Shown: positions 6,737 through 63,328 of the stretch, in pieces | Position numbering within the stretch: position 1 is the stretch's first letter | Layout of the letters: each line of letters opens with the position of its first letter | From: Bauldia sp. | Lineage (GTDB): Bacteria > Pseudomonadota > Alphaproteobacteria > Rhizobiales > Kaistiaceae | Direction of reading: 5' to 3' | Length of the DNA stretch: 64,000 nucleotides | NCBI GenBank assembly: GCA_022841545.1 | Contig: JALHRF010000001.1 | Coordinates: 62,001 to 126,000 of the forward strand | Made by a program: the position numbers and the translations under genes | Notes under the pieces: generated by a model | Told to the model about the DNA's origin: nothing | The model's database searches: none | Seen by the model: the letters and a program-made list of their open reading frames with translations, nothing else

Positions 6737-6780
6737 CCCCGCGCCGACGTTCAAGCGCCGTGTCATGTGTGGAGAGCGGT

Positions 6781-7863: not shown

Positions 7864-7869
7864 TCGCGA

Positions 7870-13055: not shown

Positions 13056-13273
13056 GTCTAAGCCCTCGCTGATCGAACCGTCTTGACGCGCGCTATATGT
13101 CGGTTGCGCCATCGCGACAGAGAAGCAACAAATAGAGCATCGCGACGGCACGCTTGAAGGCTTTACGAACGTATCGCGATCGACCTCAAGTGCGCAACCC
13201 AGCTACCGAAGATTCGGCTCTCCTCGATGTGCGGTGGAGGGGCCGCCGACCCGCCGGTCGCCAAGGAGAGGCT

Positions 13274-30737: not shown

Positions 30738-30749
30738 GGCAACCTCTCC

Positions 30750-31159: not shown

Positions 31160-31167
31160 TCCTTCGA

Positions 31168-31704: not shown

Positions 31705-31728
31705 GAGCGTTTCCCTGTCTGATCAAGA

Positions 31729-32976: not shown

Positions 32977-32995
32977 CGCGAATGCTCCTCAAATG

Positions 32996-33018
32996 AAAAG
33001 CCCCGCGCGAGGCGGGGC
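32996..33018 (-). terminator. Rho-independent terminator between fibre genes and sheath
   Basis: A 7-bp GC-only stem (GCCCCGC and GCGGGGC) with a 5-base loop is followed on the minus strand by TTTT. It lies downstream of the gene at 33048 and upstream of the sheath start. A short T-run suggests partial termination. Confidence 0.65.
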
Positions 33019-33047
33019 GGATTGCAGGGGGTTCAGACTGCGCGGGT

Positions 33048-33482
33048 CTATTCCGGCGCGAGGATCTCAAGCGGGTTGGCGCCGATCGCCCCCAGAAAGA
33101 CAAAGGCATCTGGATCGTCGTGCGGGAGCGATCCTGCGGTGTAGAAGCGCCGGAACAGCGCCGGCTGCGCAGCAAGCGCAGCGTCAGCGGCTTCGATGAG
33201 TCCCGCGGCTTCGAGCCGACGGACGATGCGGTACGTCGATACGCGCCAACTGGTCGGCGGCTGGTCCGATTCCGTGGACGGCTCGGGTCCAGGTTCAGGC
33301 TCGATGCCGTACTGTCCGCTGTACTGGCGAACGACGCGTTCGAGCAGCGGATCCGCGGTCGGCGCCGGAACGTCGACGGTGAACCGGTGCGCCTCCAACG
33401 CCGCTGCGAAGGCGGCCACCGCGTCTGCGAAGGCGCTCACACCGCCGAGGCGCAGGATGTCCGCGCGGCTAATCGTCAACAT
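33048..33482 (-). CDS. Phage protein of unknown function, possible fibre assembly
   Basis: 144 residues, acidic and alanine-rich. It begins LTISRADILRLGGVSAFADA and ends DAFVFLGAIGANPLEILAPE. The middle has YSGQYGIEPEPGPEPSTESD, a disordered linker, and then a helical segment. It sits directly after the collar-domain fibre and before the terminator, where fibre assembly chaperones are common. No domain was recognised, so the role is positional inference only. Confidence 0.65.
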   Translation of the reverse strand: MLTISRADILRLGGVSAFADAVAAFAAALEAHRFTVDVPAPTADPLLERVVRQYSGQYGIEPEPGPEPSTESDQPPTSWRVSTYRIVRRLEAAGLIEAADAALAAQPALFRRFYTAGSLPHDDPDAFVFLGAIGANPLEILAPE

Positions 33483-33487
33483 CTCGG

Positions 33488-34474
33488 TCAGACTCCGGCG
33501 TAGATCATGTAGTTGAGGATTACTGTGGGCTGGACGTTGTTGTGGGCGGAGCCAGACCCGGCCATTCCCGAGTTGAATGCCGGGATGTCGAAGGAATGCC
33601 GGTGTGTGGACGGACTCGCTCCATCCGTGGTTCCGCTCATGGTGAGCGTGTTGCCCGTCTCGTCCTTGTCCATGGCGTCCTTGGACCCGCCGCCCGACAG
33701 ATCGCTCCGGGTAAGAACGCTCTTGGTCAGCGTCACGCCGTGGGTGTGGGCGCCGTCGTAGCCGGTGTACTGGGCACCACCCATGTCGACCACGTGGTCG
33801 TGGGGCCCGAGCTGGGCCTCGGTCAGCGCGTGCGTCTCGGCACCGCCGGCCGTACCTAGCGTGTCCCCGTTAAGGCCGCCGCTCTGGCCCGTCAGACGGT
33901 TGGCGGATGTGCCGCCCATATCGTCCTGGCCGGCGACGACGCGTCCGCGGAGGTCCGGCAAGGTGAATGTGGTGGCGCCGTCACCGGCGCCATAGGTCGT
34001 CCCGATCGCTGCGAAGAGCGCGGTGTAGGTGGTCCGGCTGACATTCTGCCCGAAGCAAAGAAGCCATTTGGCCGGCGCGTTGAGCCCTGCATAGGGAATG
34101 ACTGCGCCGACCGGGGTGAGCGATGCGGCGAGATCCGCGACGTCGGCGATAGCAAGTGCCACCGCGCCGGTCCTCCCCGCGACGGACGTCACCGACCCCG
34201 CAACATCAGCCACGCTGAGGGTGACGGCTCCGGTGCGGCCGGCGACCGAGGTGACCGACCCGGCTACATCAGCAACGGTCAGCGCCACCGCACCGGTCTT
34301 GCCCGCGACGGACGTAACCCGCCCGATCTCTACGATCGACGCCGCCCCATTGTCCTTCTTCAGGTAGAGCGTGCCGTCGTTGGTGTTGACAGCGAGCTCG
34401 CCGAGCTGGAGATCCGCCGCGAGCGGAACCTTCCCAGCGGTCGCGGAGCGCTTCAACCGGATGGTATTCGGCAT
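33488..34474 (-). CDS. Phage tail fibre with collar domain
   Basis: 328 residues. The N-terminal attachment domain (IRLKRSATAGKVPLAADLQL, then GELAVNTNDGTLYLKKDNG) is homologous to that of the gene at 23886. Three near-identical repeats follow at about 50-110 (SVAGRTGAVTLSVADVAGSV type). Residues about 115-185 form a phage collar domain (GAVIPYAGLNAPAKWLLCFG, then FTLPDLRGRVVAGQDDMGG). The C-terminus has His-rich HTHGVTL and THRHSF elements and ends NNVQPTVILNYMIYAGV. It is likely a receptor-binding or short fibre. Confidence 0.85.
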   Translation of the reverse strand: MPNTIRLKRSATAGKVPLAADLQLGELAVNTNDGTLYLKKDNGAASIVEIGRVTSVAGKTGAVALTVADVAGSVTSVAGRTGAVTLSVADVAGSVTSVAGRTGAVALAIADVADLAASLTPVGAVIPYAGLNAPAKWLLCFGQNVSRTTYTALFAAIGTTYGAGDGATTFTLPDLRGRVVAGQDDMGGTSANRLTGQSGGLNGDTLGTAGGAETHALTEAQLGPHDHVVDMGGAQYTGYDGAHTHGVTLTKSVLTRSDLSGGGSKDAMDKDETGNTLTMSGTTDGASPSTHRHSFDIPAFNSGMAGSGSAHNNVQPTVILNYMIYAGV

Positions 34475-34498
34475 GAGACCCTCGGCGCGCTCAGGCGA

Positions 34499-35305
34499 TC
34501 AGTAGCCGCCGCCATCGAAATTGGTGATCTGGCTCTGGAGGCCGGTCAGCGTTGTCTGAAGGTTCGAGACCTGGGCGATCGAATGGCCGTGATTGCTGTC
34601 GGCCTTGGCGCCGATCGCGGCGACGAGGTTCGGGATGTCAGCCATGCCGAGGGCCACCAGACCGGTCTTGCCGTTCACCGACGATACCGGTCCATTGGCG
34701 ATGATCTCCAATGCCGTGGCAGCCGCACCTTCGGCTATCGCTGCCGCCTCCTGCGCCGCGGTCAGGGTCCCCCCGACCTCACCCGCGACCTCGAGGATAG
34801 TCTGGGCAAGCCCTGCGCTTGCCGAGACGACCCAGTCGGCGTGCTCGGCACCGGACAGACCGCCATGAACGGCGACGACCGTGAAGGCGAGGCCACCGAT
34901 GCTTCGGTCATAGGCTTGGACGCGAAGCATCGCCCAGTCATCAACAGCGTCATCCGCCTGGCGCGACAGGATCACGTAAGGCGTCGGTGCGAAGAGCGGC
35001 CGAGCAGGTGTGTCGTCGACGGCGAGCGTCGTCTCAAGGCCAACCGAAAGCGACAGCGGCGTAGCCGACGTTGCCACCAGAAACCCGCTCGCGGCCGCAG
35101 CCTGCGCCTGGGCGAGTGCCGGGCCGAGGACCTCATTGACCCGATTGAGGCCGAGCGTAACCAAGCGATCCGTGGCGCCGGTCACAGATGCCAGGCCGGC
35201 GTCGATCTGAGCCAGGCTCTCGGCGATCAGCCGGAAGCGGCGGTTGAAGAAATCGCGGTCGAGGACCTGCTGATCGCGAACCCGAAGGTCCTCGAACCTT
35301 AGCAT
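34499..35305 (-). CDS. Phage tail fibre or baseplate-associated protein
   Basis: 268 residues from the ATG at 35305. The first 60 are helical (LRFEDLRVRDQQVLDRDFFN), then a beta-rich middle (SGFLVATSATPLSLSVGLET) and a C-terminal half with SSVNGKTGLVALGMADIPNL, a repeat type shared with the neighbouring fibre. It ends NFDGGGY. The open frame upstream to 35734 overlaps other genes and is not used. Function is inferred from position between DUF4815 and collar-fibre genes. Confidence 0.72.
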   Translation of the reverse strand: MLRFEDLRVRDQQVLDRDFFNRRFRLIAESLAQIDAGLASVTGATDRLVTLGLNRVNEVLGPALAQAQAAAASGFLVATSATPLSLSVGLETTLAVDDTPARPLFAPTPYVILSRQADDAVDDWAMLRVQAYDRSIGGLAFTVVAVHGGLSGAEHADWVVSASAGLAQTILEVAGEVGGTLTAAQEAAAIAEGAAATALEIIANGPVSSVNGKTGLVALGMADIPNLVAAIGAKADSNHGHSIAQVSNLQTTLTGLQSQITNFDGGGY

Positions 35306-35309
35306 CGGT

Positions 35310-35480
35310 TTACGCCTTACTGATCGGGCTGACCGACGCGACGGCATCGGGGGTCGCGCGCTTGACCGCTTCGTACATCGCCGCCTTGACCTGATAGCGG
35401 GCACCCGGTCGAAAGCGGATGCCATCGACCTCGACCGGTCGGTTGACGGTGAGTTCGTAGTGCGAGGGCTTCTTGGCCAT
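35310..35480 (-). CDS. Small phage protein (56 residues)
   Basis: An ATG at 35480 opens MAKKPSHYELTVNRPVEVDG and continues IRFRPGARYQVKAAMYEAV to a TAA at 35310-35312. Its upstream AGGAGGACATTCTCCG provides a ribosome site. It lies four bases before the next gene's start and forty after the DUF4815 stop, so it fits the operon without overlap. Such short basic proteins occur between fibre genes of related phages; no function is known. Confidence 0.7.
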   Translation of the reverse strand: MAKKPSHYELTVNRPVEVDGIRFRPGARYQVKAAMYEAVKRATPDAVASVSPISKA

Positions 35481-35520
35481 CGGAGAATGTCCTCCTGCTT
35501 GTCGGATCGTTCGGCTCTGG

Positions 35521-37827
35521 TTACGACTGCGAGAACTCGATCAGCTCGCCGACATGGAAGAGCGCTGCCGCACTGGTCGTGGCGCCGACGATCTTCACTG
35601 CGTAGCTGCTGACCGCCGAGACGTTGAAGATCGCGGTGCGACGGAGCGAGCCGTCCGGCAGGGTGACATCCTCGACTACGTCGGCAGTCTCGGTGCCGGC
35701 CAACGCGGGCCCGGTGAGCAGCGAGACAGTGCAATTGTGGCTCGCCTCCTCGTAGGCCTGCAAGTCGACGATGACCTTGATGCTGTTGCTCGGCGAACCA
35801 AGGGTTCGGGTTGCCCCGATCCAGGTGAATGACGTCTTCGGCCGGCTGACGATCGCCTGTGAGCCGACGAGACCGAAGCCCGGCATAAGATCGGTGGTGC
35901 CGGTCAGCGTCACCCGAAGCGGCAGGATGGCCGGGAGGCCGGCGAGGTTGGGGCCGTTGGGCGCGCCGTCGAGCGGCACCCAGGCGCCATTCACCTGCAC
36001 CTCAAAGTCGGTGCGGCAGGCGGGCGGCGTGATCCCCTCGTTGAGGATGTCGATATCGAGGATGCCGCCGGCGAGCTGGAGCGCGGTCAGTTCGACCGAG
36101 AGACGAGTCCGCTCGAACTTCGCGAAGTAGAGCCGAAGCTTGAGATCGTCGGTCAGGTTGCCGGCGAAGAAAGCGCCGTCGGTCGAGACAAAGAACGTCC
36201 CCTGCACCACACCGTTGTCGGTGTTGCTCATCGCCACGTAGTGGTCACCGGTGGTGACGCAGACGAGCGCATAGCGGCGGCCGGCAACCAGGTAGGTAGG
36301 CGGCAGGACGATCCTGGTCTCGACCAGGGACGGCAGCCCGATGCCGCCGGAGACAGATCCAACCTTGACCTCCGCCACGGGGACCGTGGTCCGGGACAGC
36401 ACCCGCGTGAGGTCCGGCATACCGAACGAGGTCTCGCAGATGAGGACGGTGATATCGCCGGTCGCCGCCTTCCGCGAGACGAAGAGGCCGATCTGGCTCA
36501 GCCAGCCGTCCTGTGAGTTGAGGAAGGTCTGGGCGATCTGCTGGCCGTTGATCGAAGCAGTGGAGGTGACGCGTTCCCAGTAGGGCTCCTGGTAGATGTC
36601 GATCCAGAACTGGCGAACCCGCACCCAGTGGACATTGCCGTTGGGGATGACCTGGCCGTTCGGCATCCGGTCCGGCACGCCGTTGATCACCTCCCACGTC
36701 TCGCCGTTCAGGCGGAAGACGTTCCGGGCCATGTCGTAGGTACCCTGGCGCCACCAAGTGCCATTGGTGCAGACCTCGCGGGTCGCGCCATAGCGGCGGC
36801 GCTCGCGGGACCGGGTTAGTTGGCGGATCTCGGTGGCCTCGTAGGTGTACTGCGCCATCCGGGTCTCGCCGGAATACCCGGTGAGGTCCATCCGGAGGCC
36901 GTGTCCGTACTTCGGCAGGACGAAGCCATTCGTCAGCGTGACATAGACGTTGTTGGGGTTGAGGAGCGCCAGGGTTGACGTCGCAGATCCAGCCTCGGGG
37001 AAGCGGATGCCTTCGCCCACCACAGCGTCGAAGCTGGCGTGGCCCGGGTTCGAGCCGTCGTCGGTCAGGAAGTGGTCGGTTCCGTAGTAGATGTAGGCGC
37101 CGGGCTCATAGACCTTGTTGCGGAGGTCCTCGAGCTGCTGGGTGAGGTCGACGACTTCGTTCTTGAGGGCAAAGGCAAGCATCCGGTCGGCAAGTGCCGA
37201 CAGATCGGTACGGAGCGTGTCGACCTGGCCGCTGATCTGGCCGCGCCATTGCTCGAGCGCCGTGACCCGGTTGGCGACGAGGCGGAGGTTGGGCAGCTGC
37301 GTCGCTGCCCACTGTTCGATCGCGACGATGCCGGTGGTATCGAGGAGCACGTAGGCGAGGACGGTGACGTTCGCGTCCGTCGCCGGATAGGACGGATCGG
37401 GGCTCTCGGTGCCGGCGACGCTCGAGACTTCGCAGCGCCGATGGCTTTCCATGGCAACCGACTGCGGCTCGGTGGTGCCGAGCTGGGCGTCGATCAGGAA
37501 GTCGCGTGGCTGGACATCGGTGTCCACGGACTGGCCGAAGGCGACCAGCGCAATCCGCTTGCGAGTAACGAGTGGCAGGGCGTTGAAGAGATCGACCACG
37601 ACATCGTCGTTGCGGGCGAACACGGCGCCACCGGCATAGAGACGCCCGGCGCTCAGCGTCACCTCGGTCGCCGCGGTCTTGGTGGCGAAGAAGCCGACAT
37701 AGCCCTTGCCGGCCTCGACCGCGTCCCTGACTACGTGGTCGAGCGAGGCGCGAGCAAAGTCCTGCGCATTGTTGAGGTCCGCCGACTGGAGCTCCTGCCG
37801 GTCGCGGAAGAGAACCGTGCTTTCCAT
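35521..37827 (-). CDS. DUF4815 phage baseplate or fibre protein
   Basis: 768 residues. The N-terminal half matches DUF4815 tail proteins (VLFRDRQELQSADLNNAQDF, RLYAGGAVFARNDDVVVDL, and later FLTDDGSNPGHASFDAVVG and ARNVFRLNGETWEVINGVPD). The second half is beta-rich and may form a large fibre or spike. It follows gpI in the same orientation, where P2 has its fibre gene H, so it probably links baseplate to fibres. Confidence 0.78.
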   Translation of the reverse strand: MESTVLFRDRQELQSADLNNAQDFARASLDHVVRDAVEAGKGYVGFFATKTAATEVTLSAGRLYAGGAVFARNDDVVVDLFNALPLVTRKRIALVAFGQSVDTDVQPRDFLIDAQLGTTEPQSVAMESHRRCEVSSVAGTESPDPSYPATDANVTVLAYVLLDTTGIVAIEQWAATQLPNLRLVANRVTALEQWRGQISGQVDTLRTDLSALADRMLAFALKNEVVDLTQQLEDLRNKVYEPGAYIYYGTDHFLTDDGSNPGHASFDAVVGEGIRFPEAGSATSTLALLNPNNVYVTLTNGFVLPKYGHGLRMDLTGYSGETRMAQYTYEATEIRQLTRSRERRRYGATREVCTNGTWWRQGTYDMARNVFRLNGETWEVINGVPDRMPNGQVIPNGNVHWVRVRQFWIDIYQEPYWERVTSTASINGQQIAQTFLNSQDGWLSQIGLFVSRKAATGDITVLICETSFGMPDLTRVLSRTTVPVAEVKVGSVSGGIGLPSLVETRIVLPPTYLVAGRRYALVCVTTGDHYVAMSNTDNGVVQGTFFVSTDGAFFAGNLTDDLKLRLYFAKFERTRLSVELTALQLAGGILDIDILNEGITPPACRTDFEVQVNGAWVPLDGAPNGPNLAGLPAILPLRVTLTGTTDLMPGFGLVGSQAIVSRPKTSFTWIGATRTLGSPSNSIKVIVDLQAYEEASHNCTVSLLTGPALAGTETADVVEDVTLPDGSLRRTAIFNVSAVSSYAVKIVGATTSAAALFHVGELIEFSQS

Positions 37828-37832
37828 AGGAA

Positions 37833-39089
37833 TCAGACCTCGATAAGTTGACCGAGCGCAGAACTGCCGACGGCGAGGCGATCGCCGGCGCGGGGAAGAC
37901 GCCAGGTGCGGGTGTCGATCAGGATCCGGTCGCGGAGCGCCTTCGCCACGCGGATCGCCTCACGGACGTCAGCGATGGACTTGCGGTTGCCCAAGAGCAG
38001 GTAGCCGTTGACGAAACGACCCGCGGTGCGTGGCGCAACACGGCCGGTGATCCGGGTCTGGACCTCGGCGTGATAGGGCGGCATGCCGAGCCGGGTGAAC
38101 CCGAGATGCGTCGCGCGCTTCCGCTCGTCCGGCACCCGCTCCGAGTCGTGGATGTGCCAACGCTCGTAGAGGTATCGCCAGGCAACGGTCGGCGGCAGGC
38201 ACTTGCCGACGATGAACTGTCGACGAGTGGCATAAAGAGCGGTCGGCTGTCCGGGATGAGCCTCGGCGACAGCCTCCGGCCTGATGTCGATCAACTCGGC
38301 ATTCGGCCAGGCGGTAGTGTAGGTCTCGCGGCCAAGGCGGAACTCGTAGCTCTGATCACGTGGGATCCGGATGATCCGCTGCCGGACACCGAAGTCATCA
38401 ACGAGGAAGGCCCTGGCCTTCGGCGGCGCGGTCAGGTGGACGGCGGCCGTCGGCTTTGGCGCGAGGACAACTTCGTCGTAGCCGACGGCATCGACACGAC
38501 CGACAGCTTCAGCAGAGACCGTCCGGATGGTCAACGTCGTCTCGACGCCGCGGTCCCACAGCTTCGCCGTCCGCACGAACCGCGACCAGGCACCAACATC
38601 TTTCACCATGGCGGCGTTGAGAAAGGCCTTGTCCCGACCGAAGGCCTTGCTGGTGAAGTGGGCGAAACGCCATGTGCCGCGGCCGACGAAAGGGTAGATC
38701 CGCAACTGTGCGAACCGTGCCAGATAGGCCGCCCGCTCCTCCGGCGTGAACGAAGGGACCATGAAGGTCTTGGCCGGCGGCACGATGAACCGTCGCGGAT
38801 CCGCGCCCATGATCCGGATGTGCTCGGCGATCGAGGCGGCAGTGCCTTTCCGCGCGTGCATCGCCAGAGCGCGCGCCGTGAGAAGCCGCCGCTTCTCCTC
38901 CGGCCAGGTCGCCTCCCACAGATCAACCGACAGCGCCCAGGCGAGCCACGGCAAGTGCTGCGCCGAGATCTCGTAGGGACGGACCAGCTTCGGCAGGTCG
39001 ATGGGCAGTCCGTCAATCCGGGCGCCAGTCAGGTCCGCGGCGGTCTCGAACGATGTCCGGTTCGGCGGAAGGAGGACGTCCCGGGCCAT
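37833..39089 (-). CDS. Phage tail protein I (baseplate)
   Basis: 418 residues, longer than P2 gpI (about 180). The first 140 hold the gpI-like domain (DLPKLVRPYEISAQHLPWLA, then ALSVDLWEATWPEEKRRLL and HARKGTAASIAEHIRIMGAD). The rest is an extension with beta-rich motifs. It follows gpJ with a four-base gap, which is the P2 order W-J-I. It is needed to assemble the baseplate wedge. Confidence 0.85.
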   Translation of the reverse strand: MARDVLLPPNRTSFETAADLTGARIDGLPIDLPKLVRPYEISAQHLPWLAWALSVDLWEATWPEEKRRLLTARALAMHARKGTAASIAEHIRIMGADPRRFIVPPAKTFMVPSFTPEERAAYLARFAQLRIYPFVGRGTWRFAHFTSKAFGRDKAFLNAAMVKDVGAWSRFVRTAKLWDRGVETTLTIRTVSAEAVGRVDAVGYDEVVLAPKPTAAVHLTAPPKARAFLVDDFGVRQRIIRIPRDQSYEFRLGRETYTTAWPNAELIDIRPEAVAEAHPGQPTALYATRRQFIVGKCLPPTVAWRYLYERWHIHDSERVPDERKRATHLGFTRLGMPPYHAEVQTRITGRVAPRTAGRFVNGYLLLGNRKSIADVREAIRVAKALRDRILIDTRTWRLPRAGDRLAVGSSALGQLIEV

Positions 39090-39093
39090 CGGA

Positions 39094-39954
39094 TTACGCG
39101 TCCCGCGTCGAAGCGGTGGTGATCATCATGCCGGTGCTCGCGTAGACCTCGGTTTCGTCGAGCACGATGTCCACCGCCGGTGCGATCAGCTCGACCGAGT
39201 GCACGCCTTCCTGATGGAGCTTCGCGAAGATCGCCGAGCGCCGGAGGTTCATGCCGAGCATCCGGTTCCGTTCGAGCCAGTCTCCGAGCGCAGCCGTGGC
39301 GCGGCTCCGGACGACGCCGGCGTCCGGTCCGGGATAGAGCGTGAGACCTGCCTCGATGTTCACACCACGAACCGTCGGCGGCAGGACCTGAACGACATCC
39401 GTCAGGGGCCGGATCGCTTCGTCGCGGAGGTGGAGGCGGATCGCCTCGCGTTCGGCCTCGCTCGGGATCGGATCAGGTCCGGAGCGGAGCACCGTCAGCC
39501 GCACCACGCCGGGCTGAGTCATGATCGCAGAGACATCCCGCGCCCATGGCGCGACGGTAAGCACGTGGTACTGGTAGGCGCCCTCTGGTCCGGCCACCGA
39601 GAATGCCTCGGGGGCAAGCTGGACCCGCCGCCGAAGACGATCGTCCGCCTCGCCTTCCTGCCGGATAGTGCCAAACAGGGCGGCGAGATGATCGAGGTTC
39701 GAGCCGTAGGACGAGGCGAGCAGCACGGTGCGCGCCCCATCGTTGATCCGGGCACGAAGCCTGAGTTCACGGTAAGCAAAGGCCTCGATCAGCTTCCGAG
39801 CCGGTTCGCTTTCCAGGTCGATCACGCCGGCGATCGGCGGAAACCGGGCGACGAGATCGTCACGCATCTCCTTGACGATTATCTCGTAGTCGAGGGTCTC
39901 AATGATGTCGGATGGCGTGAGCGCAGACAGGTCGATCGCAGAGAATCGGCTCAT
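39094..39954 (-). CDS. Phage baseplate assembly protein J
   Basis: 286 residues of the gpJ family. Early motifs: LSALTPSDIIETLDYEIIVK and FPPIAGVIDLESEPARKLIE with AYRELRLRARINDGARTVLL. The core includes GPEGAYQYHVLTVAPWARDV and a SIMTQPGVVRLTVL-like strand. It is a wedge subunit. Its ATG overlaps the gpW stop by four bases, and gpI follows directly. No anomalies were noted. Confidence 0.9.
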   Translation of the reverse strand: MSRFSAIDLSALTPSDIIETLDYEIIVKEMRDDLVARFPPIAGVIDLESEPARKLIEAFAYRELRLRARINDGARTVLLASSYGSNLDHLAALFGTIRQEGEADDRLRRRVQLAPEAFSVAGPEGAYQYHVLTVAPWARDVSAIMTQPGVVRLTVLRSGPDPIPSEAEREAIRLHLRDEAIRPLTDVVQVLPPTVRGVNIEAGLTLYPGPDAGVVRSRATAALGDWLERNRMLGMNLRRSAIFAKLHQEGVHSVELIAPAVDIVLDETEVYASTGMMITTASTRDA

Positions 39955-51842: not shown

Positions 51843-53099
51843 TCAAACGGCATTCGCTTCCGCCGTGTGCTCACCAATTCGCGCCGCCTTGGTGGCGTCG
51901 AAGTTCCGATCGCCTCCGTCAAGTATCGCCTCCTTGCCGGTGAACTCCTGCCACCGCGCGACGATGACATCGACGTATTTTGGATCTAGCTCCATCAGGC
52001 GAGCGGCCCGGCCGGCGTGCTCGCACGCGATCAGCGTCGTCCCGGAACCACCGAAAAGATCGAGCACAATGTCGCGCGACTTCGACGAGTTGCGGATCGC
52101 CCGCTCGACCAGTTCCACAGGCTTCATCGTCGGATGCAGGTCGTTTGCCCGCGGCTTGTCATGGTGCCAGACATCACCCTGGTCTCGGGCCCCGCACCAG
52201 AAGTGTTCCGAACCCGCCTTCCAGCCGTAGAGGATCGGCTCGTACTGCCGCTGGTAGTCGGAGCGGCCGAGAGTGAAGGTGTTCTTCGCCCAGATGACGA
52301 AGGTCGACCACTTACCGCCGGCATCGAGCCAGGCGCGTTGCAGGGTATGGAGCTCGGACGAACTCATGCAGACGTAGCAGGCGCCTTTGGTGACCGTGAG
52401 CAGATTGGCGCAGGCCGCCTCCAGGAATTTGGCGAAGGCGTCTCCGAGCGCGTCGTTGAGGATCCGACGTCCTTTGCCCGGCGACTTCGCGCCTGCCTGG
52501 CCGCCGTAGTCCACGTTGTAGGGCGGATCGGTGAACGCCATGTCGGCGAGCACGCCGCCCATCAGGCGCTCGACGTCGGCCAAGGCAGTGGCATCACCGC
52601 AGAGGACGCGATGTTCGCCGAGGATCCACAGATCTCCCGGCCGCGAACAGCTCTCTTCGGGAACGTCGGGCGCGTCGTCGGGGTCGGTGAGGCCTTCGAG
52701 AGAATCCTCGGCCAACAGCTCGGATAACTGGTCGGTGTCGAAACCGGTCAGATCGAGATCGAAGCCGTCAAGCTTCAGATCCCCGAACTCCAGTTTGAGC
52801 AGATCGTCATCCCACTCGGCGTTCTCGTGGGATCGGTTGTCCATCAGCCGGTAGGCGCGCGCCTGCGCCGGCGTAAGCCCCTCGGCCACATGGACCGGCA
52901 CCGTCGTCAGGCCGAGGGCCTTAGCGGCCTCGAGCCGGGTATGCCCGACGATGACCACCATGTTCTCGTCGACGACAATGGGCTGCCGAAATCCGAACTC
53001 CGCGATCGATGCCTTCACCGCGTCGATTGCCTTAGCGTTGTTCCGGGGATTCCGCGCATAGGGCACCAGCCGCTCGACCGGGATATCGGTGACGAGCAT
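51843..53099 (-). CDS. ParB-like nuclease/recognition domain fused to DNA methyltransferase
   Basis: 418 residues. The N-terminal 90 form a ParB/Srx-type domain (LVPYARNPRNNAKAIDAVKA, then VIVGHTRLEAAKALGL). The rest is a beta-class amino-methyltransferase with catalytic DPPY (191-194) and S-adenosylmethionine site DLFGGSGTT (347-355). It would methylate adenine (or cytosine N4) in phage and host DNA, perhaps to evade restriction. There is no cognate endonuclease nearby. The ATG is 76 bases left of a divergent promoter (53175-53204). Confidence 0.9.
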   Translation of the reverse strand: MLVTDIPVERLVPYARNPRNNAKAIDAVKASIAEFGFRQPIVVDENMVVIVGHTRLEAAKALGLTTVPVHVAEGLTPAQARAYRLMDNRSHENAEWDDDLLKLEFGDLKLDGFDLDLTGFDTDQLSELLAEDSLEGLTDPDDAPDVPEESCSRPGDLWILGEHRVLCGDATALADVERLMGGVLADMAFTDPPYNVDYGGQAGAKSPGKGRRILNDALGDAFAKFLEAACANLLTVTKGACYVCMSSSELHTLQRAWLDAGGKWSTFVIWAKNTFTLGRSDYQRQYEPILYGWKAGSEHFWCGARDQGDVWHHDKPRANDLHPTMKPVELVERAIRNSSKSRDIVLDLFGGSGTTLIACEHAGRAARLMELDPKYVDVIVARWQEFTGKEAILDGGDRNFDATKAARIGEHTAEANAV

Positions 53100-54444: not shown

Positions 54445-55842
54445 TTACACGAAATAACCATGCCTTCCCCCGCACGGATATCCGTTCGAGTCCTTATGAC
54501 GATTCAGCGCGGTGCTGAGTGTGCTGCGCTTGAATTTCTTCAGACAATACGGGCACTGCACAGTGTAGCTCATCCCACCCCAAACAGGCGCTTTGCGCGG
54601 CCGTGGTGGCGCGCTCATTGGGCCCCGCCGCTGAGCACGCGCGCGGGTGCGCACAAGTCCGTCGCCGAAGTGCTCCTTCTCCGCCGGCTGTCCGGCCTTC
54701 GCTAGTTCAATCGGAAACCTGGGCTCGAACTGCTCGTCCAAGATACGCATGTCTCGGACCTTCCCGTGTAGCAGGGTTTTCTGCCCCGGCCCGCTTGTTT
54801 GTCCTCCAGTGCGATCCCAGACGTAAAAGTACTCCTCAGCATGGCCATCCTTGCGGCGCTTATACATGAGAGCATAGGGCTCAACTTGCCGCTCCCGCCC
54901 ATCGTAGGTCAACGACAGCAAACGGCGGTTGGAACCTGCTTCCATAATTAAATTGCGCAGCTCTGCTGGATAGAACGGCGTTGACGACCAGCTGCCCGGG
55001 AAGACGCCTTCGAAGATCGATTCGACAGCGGTTCGAAAGCCTTCTTCGGCCCGATCGAATTCGAACCGGGCAGCGAGCGGTGCCACATACTTGGCCCAAG
55101 CCGCTTTGAAGAACGGCATGGGTATCCCAAGCAGGATATCTTTTGCTGATGACGGGCTCGCCTGAAAAATCGTCTTCTTGAGGAAGGTACTTAAGACAGC
55201 GCTGCGATCCACTTCGATTGAGCGCTCGAAGAAGGCTGCATAAACCAGATCGTACAGATCGAAGGAGTGCCTGCGCTGGATCAGGCATTTGAGTTTGTTG
55301 GCAAGTAGCTCTTCCAAAGCCATGCAACGTAGCTCCGCCCGGCAATCCGGGGCGTCGCTGTACGCATGTATGAGAGGCCGCATCACCGTAGGAAGGTAGA
55401 TGCGATCAAATTCGGTAAGATCGACCCGGACCGCGATTATGACGCTCGCAGAGTTACCGTAGAAGTCCTGAAAATAGATGCTGCCTTTGTAGCTGCGGCG
55501 ATTCTCATCTAGAAACGCATCCGGCTTCAGCGTGGTCTTGGCGGTATCAAATTGGACGCCGCACATTGCCTGCGCAGCCTCGCATGCACGGTTGATTTCG
55601 ACTTGCGCACGGTCCAGATCAAGGGCGGACTCCAATGAAAAGTCGAGGTCGGTGGAAAACCGCGTGTTTGGATAGAACGCTTTGCGCATGGCATTGCCGC
55701 CTTTGAAAATGAGGCGCGACGCAAGGAAGTCGTTCTCGTAGAAGGCTTTCAACAACCAACCAAATACATAATCGCGCTCCACGTTCGCGACATGGACGCC
55801 CATCACCTCCGCACGGTCATCAATCTCACCTGAATCAATCAT
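54445..55842 (-). CDS. AbiEii-type nucleotidyltransferase fused to WYL-like and zinc-finger regions
   Basis: 465 residues. Residues 1-285 match the AbiEii/DUF1814 nucleotidyltransferase: FKGGNAMRK (46-54), the DLD metal motif (Asp65, Asp67), and the LANKLKCLIQRR and FDLYDLV segments (180-200). Residues about 300-375 resemble a WYL module (LLSLTYDGRERQVEPYALMY). The end holds a C2H2-like finger: Cys430, Cys433, His449, Cys457, His461. The ATG at 55842 directly precedes the family start (IDSGEI); a GTG at 55878 is possible. No AbiEi antitoxin is next to it. Likely role: phage exclusion or RNA modification, inferred. Confidence 0.8.
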   Translation of the reverse strand: MIDSGEIDDRAEVMGVHVANVERDYVFGWLLKAFYENDFLASRLIFKGGNAMRKAFYPNTRFSTDLDFSLESALDLDRAQVEINRACEAAQAMCGVQFDTAKTTLKPDAFLDENRRSYKGSIYFQDFYGNSASVIIAVRVDLTEFDRIYLPTVMRPLIHAYSDAPDCRAELRCMALEELLANKLKCLIQRRHSFDLYDLVYAAFFERSIEVDRSAVLSTFLKKTIFQASPSSAKDILLGIPMPFFKAAWAKYVAPLAARFEFDRAEEGFRTAVESIFEGVFPGSWSSTPFYPAELRNLIMEAGSNRRLLSLTYDGRERQVEPYALMYKRRKDGHAEEYFYVWDRTGGQTSGPGQKTLLHGKVRDMRILDEQFEPRFPIELAKAGQPAEKEHFGDGLVRTRARAQRRGPMSAPPRPRKAPVWGGMSYTVQCPYCLKKFKRSTLSTALNRHKDSNGYPCGGRHGYFV

Positions 55843-56010
55843 CGCTAGAGTCTGGAGCGAGTCGCAGCGGAACGCCACCTGGAGATTGGTTATGTCCGGT
55901 CAGGCGCTGCAGGAACATTGGCGCTGCGTGACAGGAAGAAGATCTTGTTAATCGAGAGCGTGTCGCGTGTCGTCCGGTGGATGACCGTCGACCAGCAATT
56001 GAGTGCCCCT

Positions 56011-56771: not shown

Positions 56772-57019
56772 CGGGTCACCTCCGGCAGGAGGGCGGCGTA
56801 GCCGATGACGTCGACGACGCTGTCACGGTGCGTCGGGTCGTGGGCGAGACGGGCGAGCTTCAGATCGATCATGCAGAGCATGACCTCGGCTGGCGTCACG
56901 GAACGACCGAGCGTGACCGACCAGCGTGCTGCCACGGTCGCCATCGAGGTGGCCGGATCGCCGTAGGTGACGCGGCGCTCGGAGATGATCCGGGCGACAT
57001 CCTCGAGGATCGCGGTCAT
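56768..57019 (-). CDS. DUF6378 domain protein
   Basis: 83 residues. ERRVTYGDPATSMATVAARW and MLCMIDLKLARLAHDPTHRD with SVVDVIGYAALL match DUF6378, a small family mostly in phages. Four-base overlaps at both ends indicate translational coupling. The family's role is not known; nearness to the resolvase suggests DNA metabolism. Confidence 0.75.
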   Translation of the reverse strand: MTAILEDVARIISERRVTYGDPATSMATVAARWSVTLGRSVTPAEVMLCMIDLKLARLAHDPTHRDSVVDVIGYAALLPEVTR

Positions 57020-57567
57020 CGCGTCCCTCCTCGGGTCTCGGTCGCCCAGAGCAGGATGGCGATGGCGTCGGCTTCGTTATCGTCGGTCGGATTGAACCCA
57101 CGTTCGCGCACGGCGGCAATCACCGCCGCCTTGTCGGCGTTGCCCTTGCCGGCGATGAACCGCTTGATGGTGCCGACCGGGACCCCCTGGTAGGCGACGG
57201 CGTGTTCCTCGCACCAGGCGGTGACCCCGGCTAGGAAGCCTCCATAGACGTGGGCTGCATCGACGCCGATGTGTCGGCGAACTTCCTCGAAGTAGACAGC
57301 CTCGATATCACCCGCGAGGCGGAGCGTCTCGTCGAGCCAGCGCTCGAAGCGGAGGTAGCGCATGCCGCCGCCCTCGAAGCGGTGCGGCTTGAAGTCGGCG
57401 GTGCCACTGATGATGCGGCCGCGGGGATTGCGGAGTGCCCAGCCGGTGGTGGTGCCAAGATCAAGGGCGAGGATGGCCGCGGCGCCCGAGGTCTCGACTG
57501 GCCCAGGCACGACAGCAAGCGGCGGCTCGTTGGCCACCGCGGGCAGGACAGCGGAAGGGATATTCAT
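57016..57567 (-). CDS. RuvC-like Holliday junction resolvase
   Basis: 183 residues with a retroviral-integrase-like fold: first catalytic Asp in AILALDLGTTTGWAL, Glu in AVYFEEVRRH, and the C-terminal Asp pair in NPTDDNEADAIAILLWA. A unique N-terminal extension of about 30 residues precedes the fold. It would cut branched phage DNA before packaging. It starts a chain of four overlapped genes. Confidence 0.82.
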   Translation of the reverse strand: MNIPSAVLPAVANEPPLAVVPGPVETSGAAAILALDLGTTTGWALRNPRGRIISGTADFKPHRFEGGGMRYLRFERWLDETLRLAGDIEAVYFEEVRRHIGVDAAHVYGGFLAGVTAWCEEHAVAYQGVPVGTIKRFIAGKGNADKAAVIAAVRERGFNPTDDNEADAIAILLWATETRGGTR

Positions 57568-57872: not shown

Positions 57873-58151
57873 ATGATCCGCCAAACCAGGGAGCAGGTTG
57901 ATCCGGAGATGGTGGCGATCAGGGCGTTGGCCTTCATCGCCGAGGATCCCGACCGACTCGAGCGTTTCCTGCTGCTCACCGGTACTCGACCGGAAACCAT
58001 CCGGAGCAGCGCCGGGCAGCCGGGCTTCCTGAGTGGCGTGATGCAGCAGGTCGTCGCCTGGGAGCCGTGGCTTCTCGAATTTGCCGCCTACACCGAAATG
58101 GCGCCGGCGGACGTCGTTCGCGCCGCCGACCAACTTGCCGAGGGCATGTGA
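57873..58151 (+). CDS. DUF3572 domain protein
   Basis: 92 residues. MVAIRALAFIAEDPDRLERF and the following LLTGTRPETIRSSAG, then GFLSGVMQQVVAWEPWLLEF match DUF3572, normally a chromosomal gene of alphaproteobacteria. The fold is predicted all-helical. Its location on the plus strand amid minus-strand phage genes, next to the repeat array, is unusual. It may be phage cargo or mark a junction between elements. The ATG at 57873 gives nearly the family length. Confidence 0.75.
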   Translation: MIRQTREQVDPEMVAIRALAFIAEDPDRLERFLLLTGTRPETIRSSAGQPGFLSGVMQQVVAWEPWLLEFAAYTEMAPADVVRAADQLAEGM

Positions 58152-58203: not shown

Positions 58204-58486
58204 TGGTCACTACCTTGGTCGGGTCCGCAGACGAGGTGGTGACCAGACTTTTCTCTTTCAGATCAGTTGGATAGGCGCTTTGGTCACCACCTTTCGTGGT
58301 CACCACCTGCTCGAAACATATTCCATAGGAGAAGGTCATGGCCGGACCGCGTTCCACATTTCCCACGCATAATGTTTGAAACAGGTGGTGACCAGAGTGC
58401 AGGTGGTGACCACGTTGAAATCATTTAGCTATTTTGGTCACCACCTTGCTCGGCAGGTGGTGACCAGAGGGGCAAGGTGGTGACCA
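58204..58486. repeat. Array of eight exact 12-bp repeats (iteron-like), both orientations
   Basis: AGGTGGTGACCA occurs on the plus strand at 58234, 58383, 58401, 58455 and 58475, and on the minus strand at 58281, 58297 and 58435 (leftmost coordinates). A ninth copy at 58204 has one mismatch. Between 58309 and 58382 lies a spacer without copies. The array lies between the DUF3572 gene and the terminator after the primase. It looks like a replication origin, partition site or dense operator. Confidence 0.85.
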
Positions 58487-58504: not shown

Positions 58505-58530
58505 AAAAGGGCGCCCGGGAGGCGCCCTCA
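58505..58530 (-). terminator. Rho-independent terminator after the primase gene
   Basis: An 8-bp stem (AGGGCGCC / GGCGCCCT) with a 5-base loop, followed on the minus strand by TTTT (the first T pairs within the stem), starts about 28 bases after the primase stop. It separates the replication operon from the repeat array. Confidence 0.7.
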
Positions 58531-58557: not shown

Positions 58558-61080
58558 TCAGCGACGGTACCGCCACTCGCGGACCGAGAGCTGTCGTTCG
58601 CCGAGCCTGGCCTGATATCTCTGCCAGTGATTTGCTTTCAGATATGCGCCGACGCGCATCTGGTCGCTCTTGTTCCAGCGGCCCGGCTCGATGCGGATCG
58701 CCTGTTCGAGAATTTCACCCACGGAGACGTCGGTGATCGGCGCCGCCCGTTTGGTCTCTTCCTCGATCCAGTCGTCATAGCCATAACCGCGATTGACGCG
58801 GCGCCGTTCATAGACGAGCCAGCGCTCGATGAGCGGGTCCCACGCGTCGGACTGATAGCGCGCGTCCTGTTCGGCGGTCGCGTCGGCTATCAGCTCCGGC
58901 TCGTCCAGCCACCAGATTGCGCCGTCGCGGAAACGGACGACCGCCTCCGCCCAGAGCTGATCGCGGTCGCGGCGCAGGGCATCGAGATCGATGTTGCCAC
59001 ACCGCACCGGCCAGAAGCGGCGATTGCCGGTCTCGTCGCGGAGATAGGTGTCGGGGTTGACGCTGCCGGCGAAGACGCACTGGCGCGGGACCTCGACGAC
59101 ATAGCGTTCGTAGGGCGGCCGGTAGCGATCGACGGTGCGGGTCAGGAAGGCCTTGATGCGCGAGACCTCGGCGCGGCCGATCGCGTCGAGCTCGGCGATC
59201 TCGATGATCCAGATACCCCGCATCTGCTGGGCGGCGTCCTTCGAACCGATCTCGGCGAGTTCGTCCGTGAACCACTCATCACCGGCGAGAACCTTCAGCG
59301 CCGTCGACTTCTTCGCGCCCTGCGGCCCTTCCAGGATCAGCATGTGGTCGACCTTGGCGCCGGGCCGCATGATGCGTGCCACCGCGGAGATCATCCAGCG
59401 CGACCCAAAGGCCCGGTTGAGCGGCGTATCATCCGCCCCAAGATAGGTACTCGCCCAGCTCGCCAGCCGCGGCACGCCATCCCAGGTGACGCTGGTCAGG
59501 TAGTCGCGCACCGGATGGACACGGATGTCACGCGCGACCGCGGTCACGCTGCGACTGACGACGATGGGCGCGACGTTGATCTCGCGATGCTGAAGCCACT
59601 CGGCGCAACGGACATCGTCGGCATCGCTCCACGGCCGCGGAAGTTTCGAGGCGGCTTCATCCCATGGTAGGGTGCGATTGACCATGGTCTCCTGACGGAA
59701 CTCGTCGAACACCAGTGCGCCTGCAAAGGCTTCGTCGTTCGAGATCGCAGTGATGACGTTGGCCTCGTTGCGCTCCGGCGTGCCCGCGAGATCGAGAATG
59801 AGCTGGCTGGCCCAGCAGGGTCGAACGGGACGGTGATGCACGTCTCCGGTGGCGTTGAGACGGCGCCGCAGCTCGGCGATCTGCTTCTCGAGAATGGAGA
59901 CGGCGATGCCGGTGGCGGACTTGATCGCCGCCAGGACCTGGCGTTCAGGGAGAGGCTCCAGCCGGGCCATCACGAGCTGGCCCAAGAGGCTGCCGAGGGC
60001 GGTCAGGTCGGGCGGATTGGTCAAGGTGCGGGCCGCCCGCTCGAATTCCGCGGCCGTGGCGAGCGGCGCAGCTGCGGCAACAGGGGCTGAGATCTTGTAG
60101 TCGGCTGCGGTCACACCGTGGCGGAGGTCGTCGTTGAAGTCGTCGCCATGCAGCGGCGCGACGATGGCGTTGGCTATGCCGGCGGCGCTGAGGCGCTCGG
60201 CGAGGACCGCTGCCGCCTGTGCGCCGGCATCCCCGGCGTCGGCGAATATGGTCACGCGGCTGATGCCCGCCGGCCACTGCCAGCGCCGGAGCCCATCGGC
60301 GGACAGCGCCGCCCAGGTGGGCACGCCAAAGATAGCCTGCGCCGACAGGGCCGTCTCGATGCCCTCGGCGACGCCGAGATGACCATCTTCACCGATCGCC
60401 GAGAGACGGACTGAGCCGCCGCCGACGGCATCGAGCATCTTCTTGCCCGGTGGCGCCTTGGCAGACCCGTCGTCGAGCAGGAAGGTACGATGGATGCCGC
60501 CGGTCGGCGCACCGGCGCCATCGCGCACGACGGCGACCATGCCGGACCAGCCGCGCTTGGCCTCGTAGTCGGTGAGGTCCGGATGGAACAGCAGGTCCGG
60601 CGAGCCCGGATCGGTCAGACCGCGGCTTCGCAGATAGACCTCCGCCACGGTACCGGCGATCGGCTGACAGCCATCGAGGATGCGGGCCACCTCGAGAGCG
60701 TTACTCGTTCTCGGCGGTGGTGTTCTTCGGGGTGGCGTCGGCGCTTCCAGACGGGCAAGTCGCGCAGCCTCCTCGAACAGGGCGCTGCCCGAGAGACCGG
60801 TGGCGTGATGGATCAGGTCGATCGGCCCGGCGGATTCGCCCGTAGCATGATCGTAGCCCCAGCCGGCGCGCGGGCCCTGCAGGTGGATGACACAGGAACC
60901 CTCGTTGCGGGGCGGGCGGCCGGAGAGGTCGGCGCAGCGAAGCGTCTTCCGGTCGGGGGACGCTCGTGCCTCCGGGAACAGCGCCGGGAGCCAGTCAGAC
61001 GCCGTTGCCGACAGCCGGTCCCGCACAGCGGCAAGATCGAAGCGGATGGGCGGCTGCCAGACATCGTTCAGGTCGATCAC
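58558..61080 (-). CDS. Phage primase-helicase (Toprim plus VirE/VapE-type ATPase)
   Basis: 840 residues starting with GTG. A zinc-ribbon-like primase N-terminus (about 30-110) is followed by a Toprim domain with GVAEGIETALSAQ (236-248) and FADAGDAG (279-286). The C-terminal half is a VirE/VapE P-loop ATPase with Walker A EGPQGAKKS (584-592) and a downstream IIEIAELDAI acidic motif. It would unwind and prime phage DNA. It follows the RecD-like helicase by ten bases and ends at the terminator, next to the repeat array that may be its origin. Confidence 0.88.
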   Translation of the reverse strand: MIDLNDVWQPPIRFDLAAVRDRLSATASDWLPALFPEARASPDRKTLRCADLSGRPPRNEGSCVIHLQGPRAGWGYDHATGESAGPIDLIHHATGLSGSALFEEAARLARLEAPTPPRRTPPPRTSNALEVARILDGCQPIAGTVAEVYLRSRGLTDPGSPDLLFHPDLTDYEAKRGWSGMVAVVRDGAGAPTGGIHRTFLLDDGSAKAPPGKKMLDAVGGGSVRLSAIGEDGHLGVAEGIETALSAQAIFGVPTWAALSADGLRRWQWPAGISRVTIFADAGDAGAQAAAVLAERLSAAGIANAIVAPLHGDDFNDDLRHGVTAADYKISAPVAAAAPLATAAEFERAARTLTNPPDLTALGSLLGQLVMARLEPLPERQVLAAIKSATGIAVSILEKQIAELRRRLNATGDVHHRPVRPCWASQLILDLAGTPERNEANVITAISNDEAFAGALVFDEFRQETMVNRTLPWDEAASKLPRPWSDADDVRCAEWLQHREINVAPIVVSRSVTAVARDIRVHPVRDYLTSVTWDGVPRLASWASTYLGADDTPLNRAFGSRWMISAVARIMRPGAKVDHMLILEGPQGAKKSTALKVLAGDEWFTDELAEIGSKDAAQQMRGIWIIEIAELDAIGRAEVSRIKAFLTRTVDRYRPPYERYVVEVPRQCVFAGSVNPDTYLRDETGNRRFWPVRCGNIDLDALRRDRDQLWAEAVVRFRDGAIWWLDEPELIADATAEQDARYQSDAWDPLIERWLVYERRRVNRGYGYDDWIEEETKRAAPITDVSVGEILEQAIRIEPGRWNKSDQMRVGAYLKANHWQRYQARLGERQLSVREWRYRR

Positions 61081-61089: not shown

Positions 61090-62412
61090 TCAGGCCAGGA
61101 TCACCAGCCCACGCTCGGCACGGGTGATGACCGTGTAGAGCCAGCGGCGGCGATCGGATTCGCTCCGTCCAAGGCCATCGTCCCAGACGATGACATTCTC
61201 CCATTGCGACCCTTGGGACTTGTGCCCGGTGATAGCCCAGCCGAACGTCGCCTCGGTGAGGTTGCGCTTGCCCTTCCAATCGCGATCGTGGCGCTGCCGA
61301 TCGAAGGCGACATGATCCTCGAAGTGTCCCTTATAGATGCGGAGCCGGCCCGGCTTTCCATCAGCGCCCGGTGGACCGATCCGGTTGCCGTCCTCGTCGC
61401 AAACCGAAGCCGAGAAGTAGAGGCTGCCCTCGTCGACGACATTGTCGAGGGTGACGAACATGCCGTTGATCAGACCGAGGTCGTTCTGGTTCTTGAGGCA
61501 GATGATCTTCTCGCCAGGCCCGGTGGGCAGCCAGCCGTCGACGAACCCCGCCGCACGGCGCATGGCATTGTTGAGCTGCAGCCGGGTGGCGTTGAGGCCG
61601 CAGATGACCTGCCCGCCGCGGAGCGCCTGATCAGGCGTGACGTCCTGCTTCCGCATCTTCCAGACGAACGTGTCGTACTGGCCGAAGCCGATCGGCTCGC
61701 CGCGGCGGGCCATGGTGGCAAGGCGGATGATGGCGCTCGTCTCGGCCTGGCGGTGGATCTCGGTGAGCATGACGTCGGGGGCATCGTTGGTGAAGGCGCC
61801 TTCGCCCTTGATCGGCGGTAACTGACCGGGATCCCCCAGCACCAGGATCGGCTTGCCGAAGCTCATCAGGTCGCGCGCCATCTCCTCGCCGACCATGGAG
61901 ACCTCGTCGAGGACGATCAGCCTCGCGTCGGCAGCGTCGCTCTGCGGGTTCAACGCAAAGCGCGGCTTCTTCATCTGCGACAGAGCCTGACGCTGGGCTT
62001 CGATGGCGGCCTCGGCGGCGGTGCGGTCGAACCCGCTGAGCGACCGCGCGTGGGCTTCCGCCTCGGCGATCTTCTTGCCCGCCGCCTCGATCTCTTCTTC
62101 GGTCGCCTCGATGACGCTGTAGATCAGGCTGTGGATGGTGCGCGCAGGCGTGCCCTTCCGCTTGAGCACCAGAGCCGCCTTGCCGGTGAAGGTCGCGGTG
62201 ACCACGCCGGGCACGCAGCTCCCGCCGTCCCGGTCGCTCACATGCGGATCGAGGCCGAGCTCGGCGAGCACGAATTTCAGGATGGTGCTCTTGCCGCATC
62301 CGGCGTACCCGAAGATGCGCGCCACCTGCTTTTCATGGGTCTCGTGCTTGAACCAATGCACGATGCGCTTGACCCCGGCCCACTGCTGGTCGGTGAGCGT
62401 GATGTCGGTCAT
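61090..62412 (-). CDS. RecD/Dda-like DNA helicase
   Basis: 440 residues, superfamily 1B. Motif I GYAGCGKS (35-42), motif Ia VVTATFTGKAALVLKRKG, motif II VLDEVSMVGEEM, motif III LVLGDPGQLPPI, and the C-terminal motifs HKSQGSQWENVIV and YTVITRAERGLVIL are all visible. It probably unwinds DNA 5' to 3' in phage replication or recombination. The ATG overlaps the preceding small gene's stop by four bases. Confidence 0.92.
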   Translation of the reverse strand: MTDITLTDQQWAGVKRIVHWFKHETHEKQVARIFGYAGCGKSTILKFVLAELGLDPHVSDRDGGSCVPGVVTATFTGKAALVLKRKGTPARTIHSLIYSVIEATEEEIEAAGKKIAEAEAHARSLSGFDRTAAEAAIEAQRQALSQMKKPRFALNPQSDAADARLIVLDEVSMVGEEMARDLMSFGKPILVLGDPGQLPPIKGEGAFTNDAPDVMLTEIHRQAETSAIIRLATMARRGEPIGFGQYDTFVWKMRKQDVTPDQALRGGQVICGLNATRLQLNNAMRRAAGFVDGWLPTGPGEKIICLKNQNDLGLINGMFVTLDNVVDEGSLYFSASVCDEDGNRIGPPGADGKPGRLRIYKGHFEDHVAFDRQRHDRDWKGKRNLTEATFGWAITGHKSQGSQWENVIVWDDGLGRSESDRRRWLYTVITRAERGLVILA

Positions 62413-62537
62413 ACCGAGCCCCCTTCAGTAGCTAGGCGCCGGCGGATGCGCCCAACATCGCTCACCTCGTACGCCGGGTATCGGGGGACGGGTCCGACGA
62501 CAGGTCTCGTCGCGGCAGAATCGAGAGCGTCCATCAT
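62409..62537 (-). CDS. Very short protein with NUMOD4-like motif
   Basis: 42 residues: MMDALDSAATRPVVGPVPRY and PAYEVSDVGRIRRRLATEGG. The YEVSDVGRIR part matches the NUMOD4 element found at the N-terminus of HNH homing endonucleases. Overlaps of four bases on each side show it is coupled between the nuclease and helicase genes. It may be the shrunken remnant of a homing endonuclease that was retained as a coupling peptide. Confidence 0.5.
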   Translation of the reverse strand: MMDALDSAATRPVVGPVPRYPAYEVSDVGRIRRRLATEGGSV

Positions 62538-63328
62538 CGCGCCCTCCAGCATCGGTCCTGCCATGAGCAGGCACCATGATAGGATCCGCCGCTCATTCCG
62601 CCCCGACAAACGGCAGCGCTGCGGTCCGCCGCAGCGCGGGGCAAAAGCTCCTCGGCGTCGCTTGCTCGAACCACCTGCACGGCCCGGTCGCTCATGGCTT
62701 GAGCGAGTGCGGCATCGAACGGCACCAGCTCCGCGTGGAGCTCGAGGGTGTCGCGGTTGAGCGCGGTGAACAGGGCCGGGTTGGGCAGGTCGAGGTAGGC
62801 CTGGTAGAGCGCGATCTGCGCCGCGTAGACCGGCCGCACGACCACCACGCCACGTTTGACGATCTCCTTCCAGGGCCCGGCGCCGACCGCCTTGTTCTCC
62901 CACAGCGCCGGGAAGATCATCGGCGCCGGACCGCTAACCACGCAGCCATCGATGTGGCCACGGAAGCGGCCACCGAGCCCCGAGAATCCGAACTGCCGTC
63001 CGTCCGAGCGGTGGGTGCGCAGATCGAACCCGGCGACGCGCAGCCACGCTGCCACCACGTCCTCACCGCGATGACCGGCTTCGAAGATTCGGAGGGTCGC
63101 CGGCTCGAAGTCGCGGCCCTCGTCCTTCGGCACGGCGAGGTAGTCGTACTGGATCTGGCGGAGACATTCTCGACCAAGGCCGGAACTGCTGACATAGCGT
63201 CGTGGCGGCTGGGCCTGGTGACGCGCAAGCAGCGCGCTGTCGATCGCCCTGCCGATGGCGGCGGCAATGCCAGGCGGGCGGAGCGGGGCCTCGTATTGGC
63301 AGCCGGAGTTGTGGTTGAGGTCGATCAC
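62534..63328 (-). CDS. PD-(D/E)XK nuclease (Cas4/RecB-like)
   Basis: 264 residues starting with GTG. Active-site pattern: an early Cys in SGLGRECLRQIQYDY, Asp in FRGHIDGCVV, Glu-x-Lys in ALWENKAVG, and the Gln of motif QxxxY (YAAQIALYQAYL). A C-terminal cysteine group (CRGG, CSWQDRC) may bind an iron-sulfur cluster, as in Cas4/AddB-like exonucleases. It is probably the phage recombination exonuclease, 5' to the helicase. Confidence 0.8.
   Translation of the reverse strand: MIDLNHNSGCQYEAPLRPPGIAAAIGRAIDSALLARHQAQPPRRYVSSSGLGRECLRQIQYDYLAVPKDEGRDFEPATLRIFEAGHRGEDVVAAWLRVAGFDLRTHRSDGRQFGFSGLGGRFRGHIDGCVVSGPAPMIFPALWENKAVGAGPWKEIVKRGVVVVRPVYAAQIALYQAYLDLPNPALFTALNRDTLELHAELVPFDAALAQAMSDRAVQVVRASDAEELLPRAAADRSAAVCRGGMSGGSYHGACSWQDRCWRAR

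Follow-up and report, generated by a model that had tools for sequence, protein, structure and literature searches.

What is a short word, repeated nine times in an intergenic gap, doing beside the primase gene of a prophage? Positions 58204-58486 of the window (the whole 64,000-nucleotide stretch of DNA analysed here) carry eight exact copies of the 12-mer AGGTGGTGACCA, five forward and three reverse, together with a ninth copy bearing one mismatch (Table 1). The original prediction, made from sequence alone, had counted eight exact copies and one degenerate copy in 283 bases and had suggested a replication origin tied to the adjacent primase, with a partition or silencing site as the alternative. 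The count held; the spacing it gave (16-20 bases within clusters, about 90 between) is corrected here to start-to-start distances of 30, 47, 16, 86, 18, 34, 20, and 20.

A dense iteron array with a conserved dyad layout

Within the 406-bp gap that holds the array, the 12-mer occurs eight times, whereas none of 200 dinucleotide shuffles has more than two copies, and at up to two mismatches the window contains 20 matches versus 3.3 in shuffles (maximum 8). The rest of the 5.58-Mb genome holds one more exact copy (contig C193), which is about the chance level, indicating that AGGTGGTGACCA is not a chromosome-wide repeat; a motif scattered across the chromosome, which would have refuted the original prediction, was therefore not found. 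A CRISPR was ruled out by the irregular spacing and the use of both orientations.

Two convergent genes, a DUF3572 gene and the primase gene, face the gap with their 3′ ends, so the earlier reading of a divergent gene beside the array failed. The array lies 72 bp beyond the primase gene, and a terminator-like hairpin on the minus strand, read by eye, sits between the two, where a terminator had been proposed. GC skew showed no clear switch around the array.

Table 1. Positions in the window of the array, its parts, and the neighbouring genes and protein regions discussed in the text.
Feature	Coordinates	Strand	Remarks
RuvC-like resolvase	57016..57567	-	control protein
DUF3572 gene	57873..58151	+	convergent neighbour on the far side of the gap
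Complete iteron array, proposed replication origin	58204..58486	.	two inverted half-arrays around a core
Primase-distal half-array	58204..58308	.	sites 58204-58215 (-, 1 mismatch), 58234-58245 (+), 58281-58292 (-), 58297-58308 (-)
Core, presumed melting region	58309..58382	.	74 bp, 51% AT, between the half-arrays
Primase-proximal half-array	58383..58486	.	sites 58383-58394 (+), 58401-58412 (+), 58435-58446 (-), 58455-58466 (+), 58475-58486 (+)
Terminator-like GC hairpin	58509..58527	-	GGGCGCC/GGCGCCC, then TTTT on the minus strand; by eye, from sequence
Toprim_3 / DUF7146 / VapE-like primase-helicase, proposed self-loading initiator	58558..61080	-	840 aa
Predicted C-terminal winged helix	58561..58722	-	residues 787-840
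Predicted recognition helix	58633-58671	-	residues 804-816; AlphaFold
Dda-like helicase	61090..62412	-	same replication/recombination module; control protein
Cas4-type exonuclease	62534..63328	-	replication/recombination module; control protein

We collected 80 relatives of the primase from viral contigs and 80 from bacterial genomes (nearly all labelled Alphaproteobacteria). A motif-blind repeat search revealed dense clusters near the primase in many of them, built on differing words such as GTTGGTGACA, AGGTGGGACA, AGGTTGGGAC, and AGGTTGGACA, and the iteron word was seen to change in concert from relative to relative (AGGTGGTGAC, AGGTTGGTGAC, AGGTGGGAC, AGGTTGGGAC, and others). Calling an array as at least four sites of a word-library family in 320 bp, within 5.5 kb downstream, we found one in 101 of the 126 relatives with at least 3 kb of downstream sequence, in 0/126 shuffled sequences, and upstream in only 1/103. 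Together with the 72-bp distance in the window, these counts satisfy the criterion of an origin lying directly 3′ of its initiator gene. The check suggested with the original prediction, a search of related prophages for the motif beside such primases, thus turned up arrays, mostly in other words. One contig, L089, does have the same word, and it shares order, orientation, and spacing with the window array: between the two, 0/108 positions have changed in the sites and 13/176 in the spacers (p = 0.002). Detection was incomplete: of 105 relatives whose downstream sequence reached 5 kb or more, 26 fell below the threshold. They include the relative nearest by sequence (L095, 89%), whose array is more degenerate, a caution that site number and quality vary. 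In 44 relatives (such as L018, L026, L028, L029, L075, L088, and L127) array and primase are separated by more than 1 kb (at most about 4.6 kb), apparently through the insertion of other sequence.

The arrangement of the sites is conserved as well as their presence. Read away from the primase gene, the order is - - + - - (core) + + - + +, and this layout recurs across word families, with some sites absent or extra. In a composite of 73 arrays aligned on the core, strand-specific peaks mirror each other and almost no sites fall within about 35 bp of the center. Opposite-strand mirror partners occur at 0.64 versus 0.48 with strands shuffled and are the commoner in 91/101 arrays. The core is 53% AT versus 35% for the loci, and is the higher in 73/73, although the window's own core reaches only the value in Table 1. 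These results meet a second criterion, that two iteron sets flank an AT-rich region. At the window's core edges the inverted repeat is prolonged (arms 58297-58330 and 58361-58394), and by eye, relatives show similar elements at the edges of their own cores. The array, its position by the proposed initiator gene, and its dyad layout are all shown directly by computation.

Covariation of the primase C-terminus with the iteron word

If the primase uses these sites, some part of it should read them. Its VapE-like domain is clear (E 6e-83), and its helicase part (residues 436-720) is homologous to PriRep1 of SaPI (7pds, E 7e-48). This homology is shown; a third criterion, a self-loading AAA+ (VapE/SF3-like) initiator helicase, is met by homology only, with helicase activity and self-loading inferred. 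In the full-length AlphaFold model the ATPase core was of low confidence (pTM 0.40) and only the C-terminus was used; refolded alone, it reached a pLDDT of 85. It is predicted to form a winged helix whose closest structural match is PriRep1 with dsDNA (7pds residues 345-466), with match scores that are weak by themselves (Foldseek E 0.07, VIA Z 6.0).

To relate protein to word we aligned 59 primases, giving 510 variable columns. For base 5 of the word (AGGT[G/T]), the top two predictors were residues 804 and 811, at 10.5 and 9.7 sd above the column background: K804 and G811 go with G, whereas R804 and S or T at 811 go with T. Residue 823 follows another feature of the word, Q occurring with TGAC and R or K with GGAC (pooled counts, 42/42 and 88/89). 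At positions 804, 811, and 823 the window primase is of the K/G/Q type, whereas L012 is R/T/Q, L009 K/G/R, and L088 R/S/R. AlphaFold places residue 804 at the opening of the recognition helix, and Q823 and R825 in a strand (820-826) that is followed by the wing. Given the predicted winged-helix fold, with helix 804-816 in the recognition position, the informative residues would sit at the usual DNA-touching places.

This three-residue recognition rule passed a held-out test on 55 host-genome loci that had not been used to derive it and were less than 97% identical to the first set. G accompanied K804 in 18/19 and T accompanied R804 in 31/33, while TGAC accompanied Q823 in 12/12 and GGAC accompanied R/K823 in 36/37. 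The lone G exception, L105, was a parsing error, its actual word being AGGTTGGGAAC; of the two T exceptions, one (L170) ends in an abnormal C-terminus, possibly from a frameshift. Seven loci are discordant with the 804 rule, and one more has T at position 804. The rule also holds where the array is more than 1 kb from the primase.

On a tree built from residues 1-740 only, leaving out the C-terminus, base 5 switches 27 times; across 22 supported independent switches, residue 804 changed in the same direction in 18.1 and in the opposite direction in 0 (p about 8e-6), and residue 823 matched in 9/9 independent pairs (p 0.004). Neighbouring proteins served as controls. For base 5 their best columns gave 0.20 (helicase), 0.18 (exonuclease), and 0.11 bits (RuvC) versus 0.63-0.66 bits for the primase, and for TGAC/GGAC the control proteins gave 0.41-0.46 versus 0.86-0.90 bits. 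The covariation itself is thus shown by computation. That the primase C-terminus reads the iteron word is its likely explanation, inferred without binding data.

A proposed phage origin and its rivals

Together, these data make it very likely that the array is a bidirectional replication origin of a temperate phage, bound by the C-terminus of the primase-helicase; binding, melting, bidirectionality, and replication are all inferred. In the mechanism we propose, the C-terminal winged helix of the Toprim-VapE protein would bind each AGGTGGTGACCA site, and the mirror-image half-arrays would assemble helicases face to face on both sides of the 74-bp core. The core would then melt, with one helicase loaded per strand, and the fused Toprim primase would prime synthesis, leading to bidirectional theta replication after induction. 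The origin put forward in the original prediction is strongly supported by the conserved geometry and the dyad layout with its AT-richer core, and draws further support from the covariation of single primase C-terminal residues with the word and from the homologous precedent of SaPI/PICI rep-ori; its partition and silencing alternatives gained none.

A referee might instead see an operator array, with the primase C-terminus or a repressor binding the sites for transcription control. Dense sites in two orientations do look like operator clusters, and initiators often autoregulate. However, the array lies between convergent 3′ ends and behind the terminator-like hairpin, so that no primase promoter is there to control, and the dyad layout around an AT-richer core is kept in relatives, even in arrays 1-4.6 kb from the primase. 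We therefore regard this explanation as very unlikely. We give as little credence to a partition (centromere-like) or plasmid-maintenance site. Centromeres can take the form of iteron clusters, and some relatives reside on plasmids, but no ParA/ParB pair was found beside the array among the neighbouring genes searched in the window, and the sole ParB_N domain found belongs to a methyltransferase fusion 5 kb from the array. Moreover, the phage has a serine integrase, and the site word covaries with the primase.

Arm-type integrase sites (attP) or a packaging site (cos/pac) are all but excluded. In favor of the former, attP regions also show inverted arm sites around a core, and the array consists of two inverted half-arrays around one. 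Against this, the array is intact and internal within a prophage that appears integrated, and so is not a split attachment site; the recombinase found is a large serine recombinase, about 12 kb past the array on the contig beyond the window end, and serine integrases do not use such arms. The array, being unsplit and accompanied by a serine-type enzyme, thus fails as a tyrosine-integrase attP, and as for cos/pac, 9 kb separate the array from the terminase genes, and it is the primase that the word follows. Hitch-hiking, in which an array of other function is merely linked to the primase, as it is in most relatives, is just as improbable, given that only residues 804, 811, and 823 among more than 500 variable columns show the strongest association, that it survives independent switches, and that proteins linked to the primase show it far more weakly.

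Known replicons and the wider reach of the array

The closest known system to the proposed origin is the pri-rep-ori replicon of SaPI/PICI satellites (SaPI1 PriRep1/VapE, PDB 7pds; SaPIbov1; EcCICFT073). There, the origin follows the rep gene on its 3′ side, an AT-rich region lies between two sets of iterons, and Pri-Rep-ori segments replicate autonomously (PMC6092414); the PICI layout has been described as found in "no other known bacterial replicon". For SaPI PriRep1 and the first description of the SaPI origin we rely on later papers and the PDB entry title. Both systems have a VapE-type helicase, a C-terminal winged helix (predicted here), an origin (proposed here) directly 3′ of the initiator gene, and two iteron sets around an AT-richer region. 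Unlike SaPI/PICI, the present element lies in a complete temperate phage rather than a satellite: the window has a gpA terminase, a lambda-type portal, and contractile-tail-type genes (tail collar, Tail_P2_I, and tail tape-measure-like genes among them), and does not meet the satellite criterion of lacking capsid and tail genes and depending on a helper. It also differs in the Toprim_3 primase fused N-terminally and in the measured covariation of the iteron word with C-terminal residues.

Other comparisons are less close. The iterons of SaPI Rep and of SCCmec Cch2 are recognized by C-terminal domains (PMC7581432), and Cch2, a putative self-loading helicase, uses its C-terminal domain to bind short repeats that closely follow its own gene, an arrangement like the one inferred for the present array; Cch2 differs in its D5/Primase_Cterm-type helicase and three 5-nt iterons, with no dyad array described. 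In lambda-type O origins, a phage-encoded initiator binds iterons beside an AT-rich region. Those iterons fall within the O gene, and O brings in host DnaB, whereas here the sites are outside the gene and the proposed initiator is itself a helicase-primase. Iteron plasmids of the RepA/RepE/pi type combine a winged-helix initiator with iterons, but typically use direct repeats and an initiator without a helicase domain, and no Rep of this type was found here.

The surroundings of the array yielded several separate observations. Within the window prophage, an N6/N4 DNA methylase-ParB_N fusion occupies 51843-53099, and a gene at 54445-55878 encodes an AbiEii-type nucleotidyltransferase (toxin family) domain with an additional C-terminal part; no obvious AbiEi antitoxin gene was noticed alongside it. 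The stretch downstream of the replication genes appears to be a cargo site, as L089 has there (2954-8341) an AraC-like regulator and two arylsulfatase-like genes, judged from translations, where the window has the AbiEii-like gene. In L090 (9665-11424), a DUF2924 gene lies immediately upstream of a large serine recombinase, likely the phage integration module, and a PAPS reductase-like gene is found at 13058-13954.

Beyond these relatives, significant repeat clusters occupy short noncoding gaps just or close behind the VapE gene in the phages Pseudomonas U5 and Haddon, Marinobacter PS3, Staphylococcus 2638A, Yersinia YeP5, Paenibacillus Bob, Bacteroides F4, and Listeria LWP01, and on plasmids p1318-5, pKNA06, and pYe4449-2. 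RcCWillis has a cluster of direct repeats in a longer gap. No convincing array was seen in Acidovorax Aval or Streptococcus Javan100; among plasmids, the cluster was weak on pGO128 and absent from pAL20115c. When cultured phages were searched by BLAST with the array DNA, only chance-level Gordonia matches were returned, as expected because the word changes. At about 40% identity, where alignments are uncertain, the residues at 804, 811, and 823 predict the words of U5 and Haddon (K, G, R: GGTGGGACAG) and of p1318-5 (R, S, K: AGGTTGGGGC), and the Q823 rule fits pYe4449-2 (GGTGTGACAG); the 823 rule does not fit Marinobacter PS3. Plasmid p1318-5 was considered as a natural test of autonomy and dropped, as RepA is also present. 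This Roseomonas plasmid (L184), which carries the VapE gene and array, also has a type I-E CRISPR-Cas locus at 30247-39118. The Komagataeibacter plasmid pKNA06 (L187) has a VapE gene with about 12 GGTGGCA copies downstream; ParA genes are its only other annotated maintenance genes and it has no other annotated replication gene, making it a candidate natural VapE replicon.

Replicons of this kind are thus already known. The original prediction knew of no described element with the exact motif, and this appears right for the word, while phage satellites are known to carry elements of this kind. In the open-licence literature that we searched, what is new (an earlier description elsewhere is possible) is the replicon as a conserved element of whole temperate phages, and the repeated concerted switching of the iteron word with its three-residue rule. 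A bolder reading, which we offer only as a possibility, is that VapE phages have a fast-diversifying origin code, in which all origin sites and three initiator residues have repeatedly changed in step (at least 22 supported switches), so that otherwise similar phages fall into mutually orthogonal replication groups. Satellites or competitors exploiting phage replication proteins, or defences targeting origins, may drive such switching, and gene conversion or the swap of whole origin-plus-C-terminus cassettes may be the route by which about nine sites change together.

The array and primase-helicase provide a proposed origin and initiator for temperate phages of Alphaproteobacteria, a large group that is mostly uncultured, with related arrays in phages of Pseudomonas, Marinobacter, Yersinia, Staphylococcus, Listeria, Paenibacillus, and Bacteroides. 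They also offer a testable rule of DNA recognition, in which three residues predict key features of the iteron word. Finally, the indication that a PICI-type origin layout also occurs in full phages bears on the source of the satellites' replicons.
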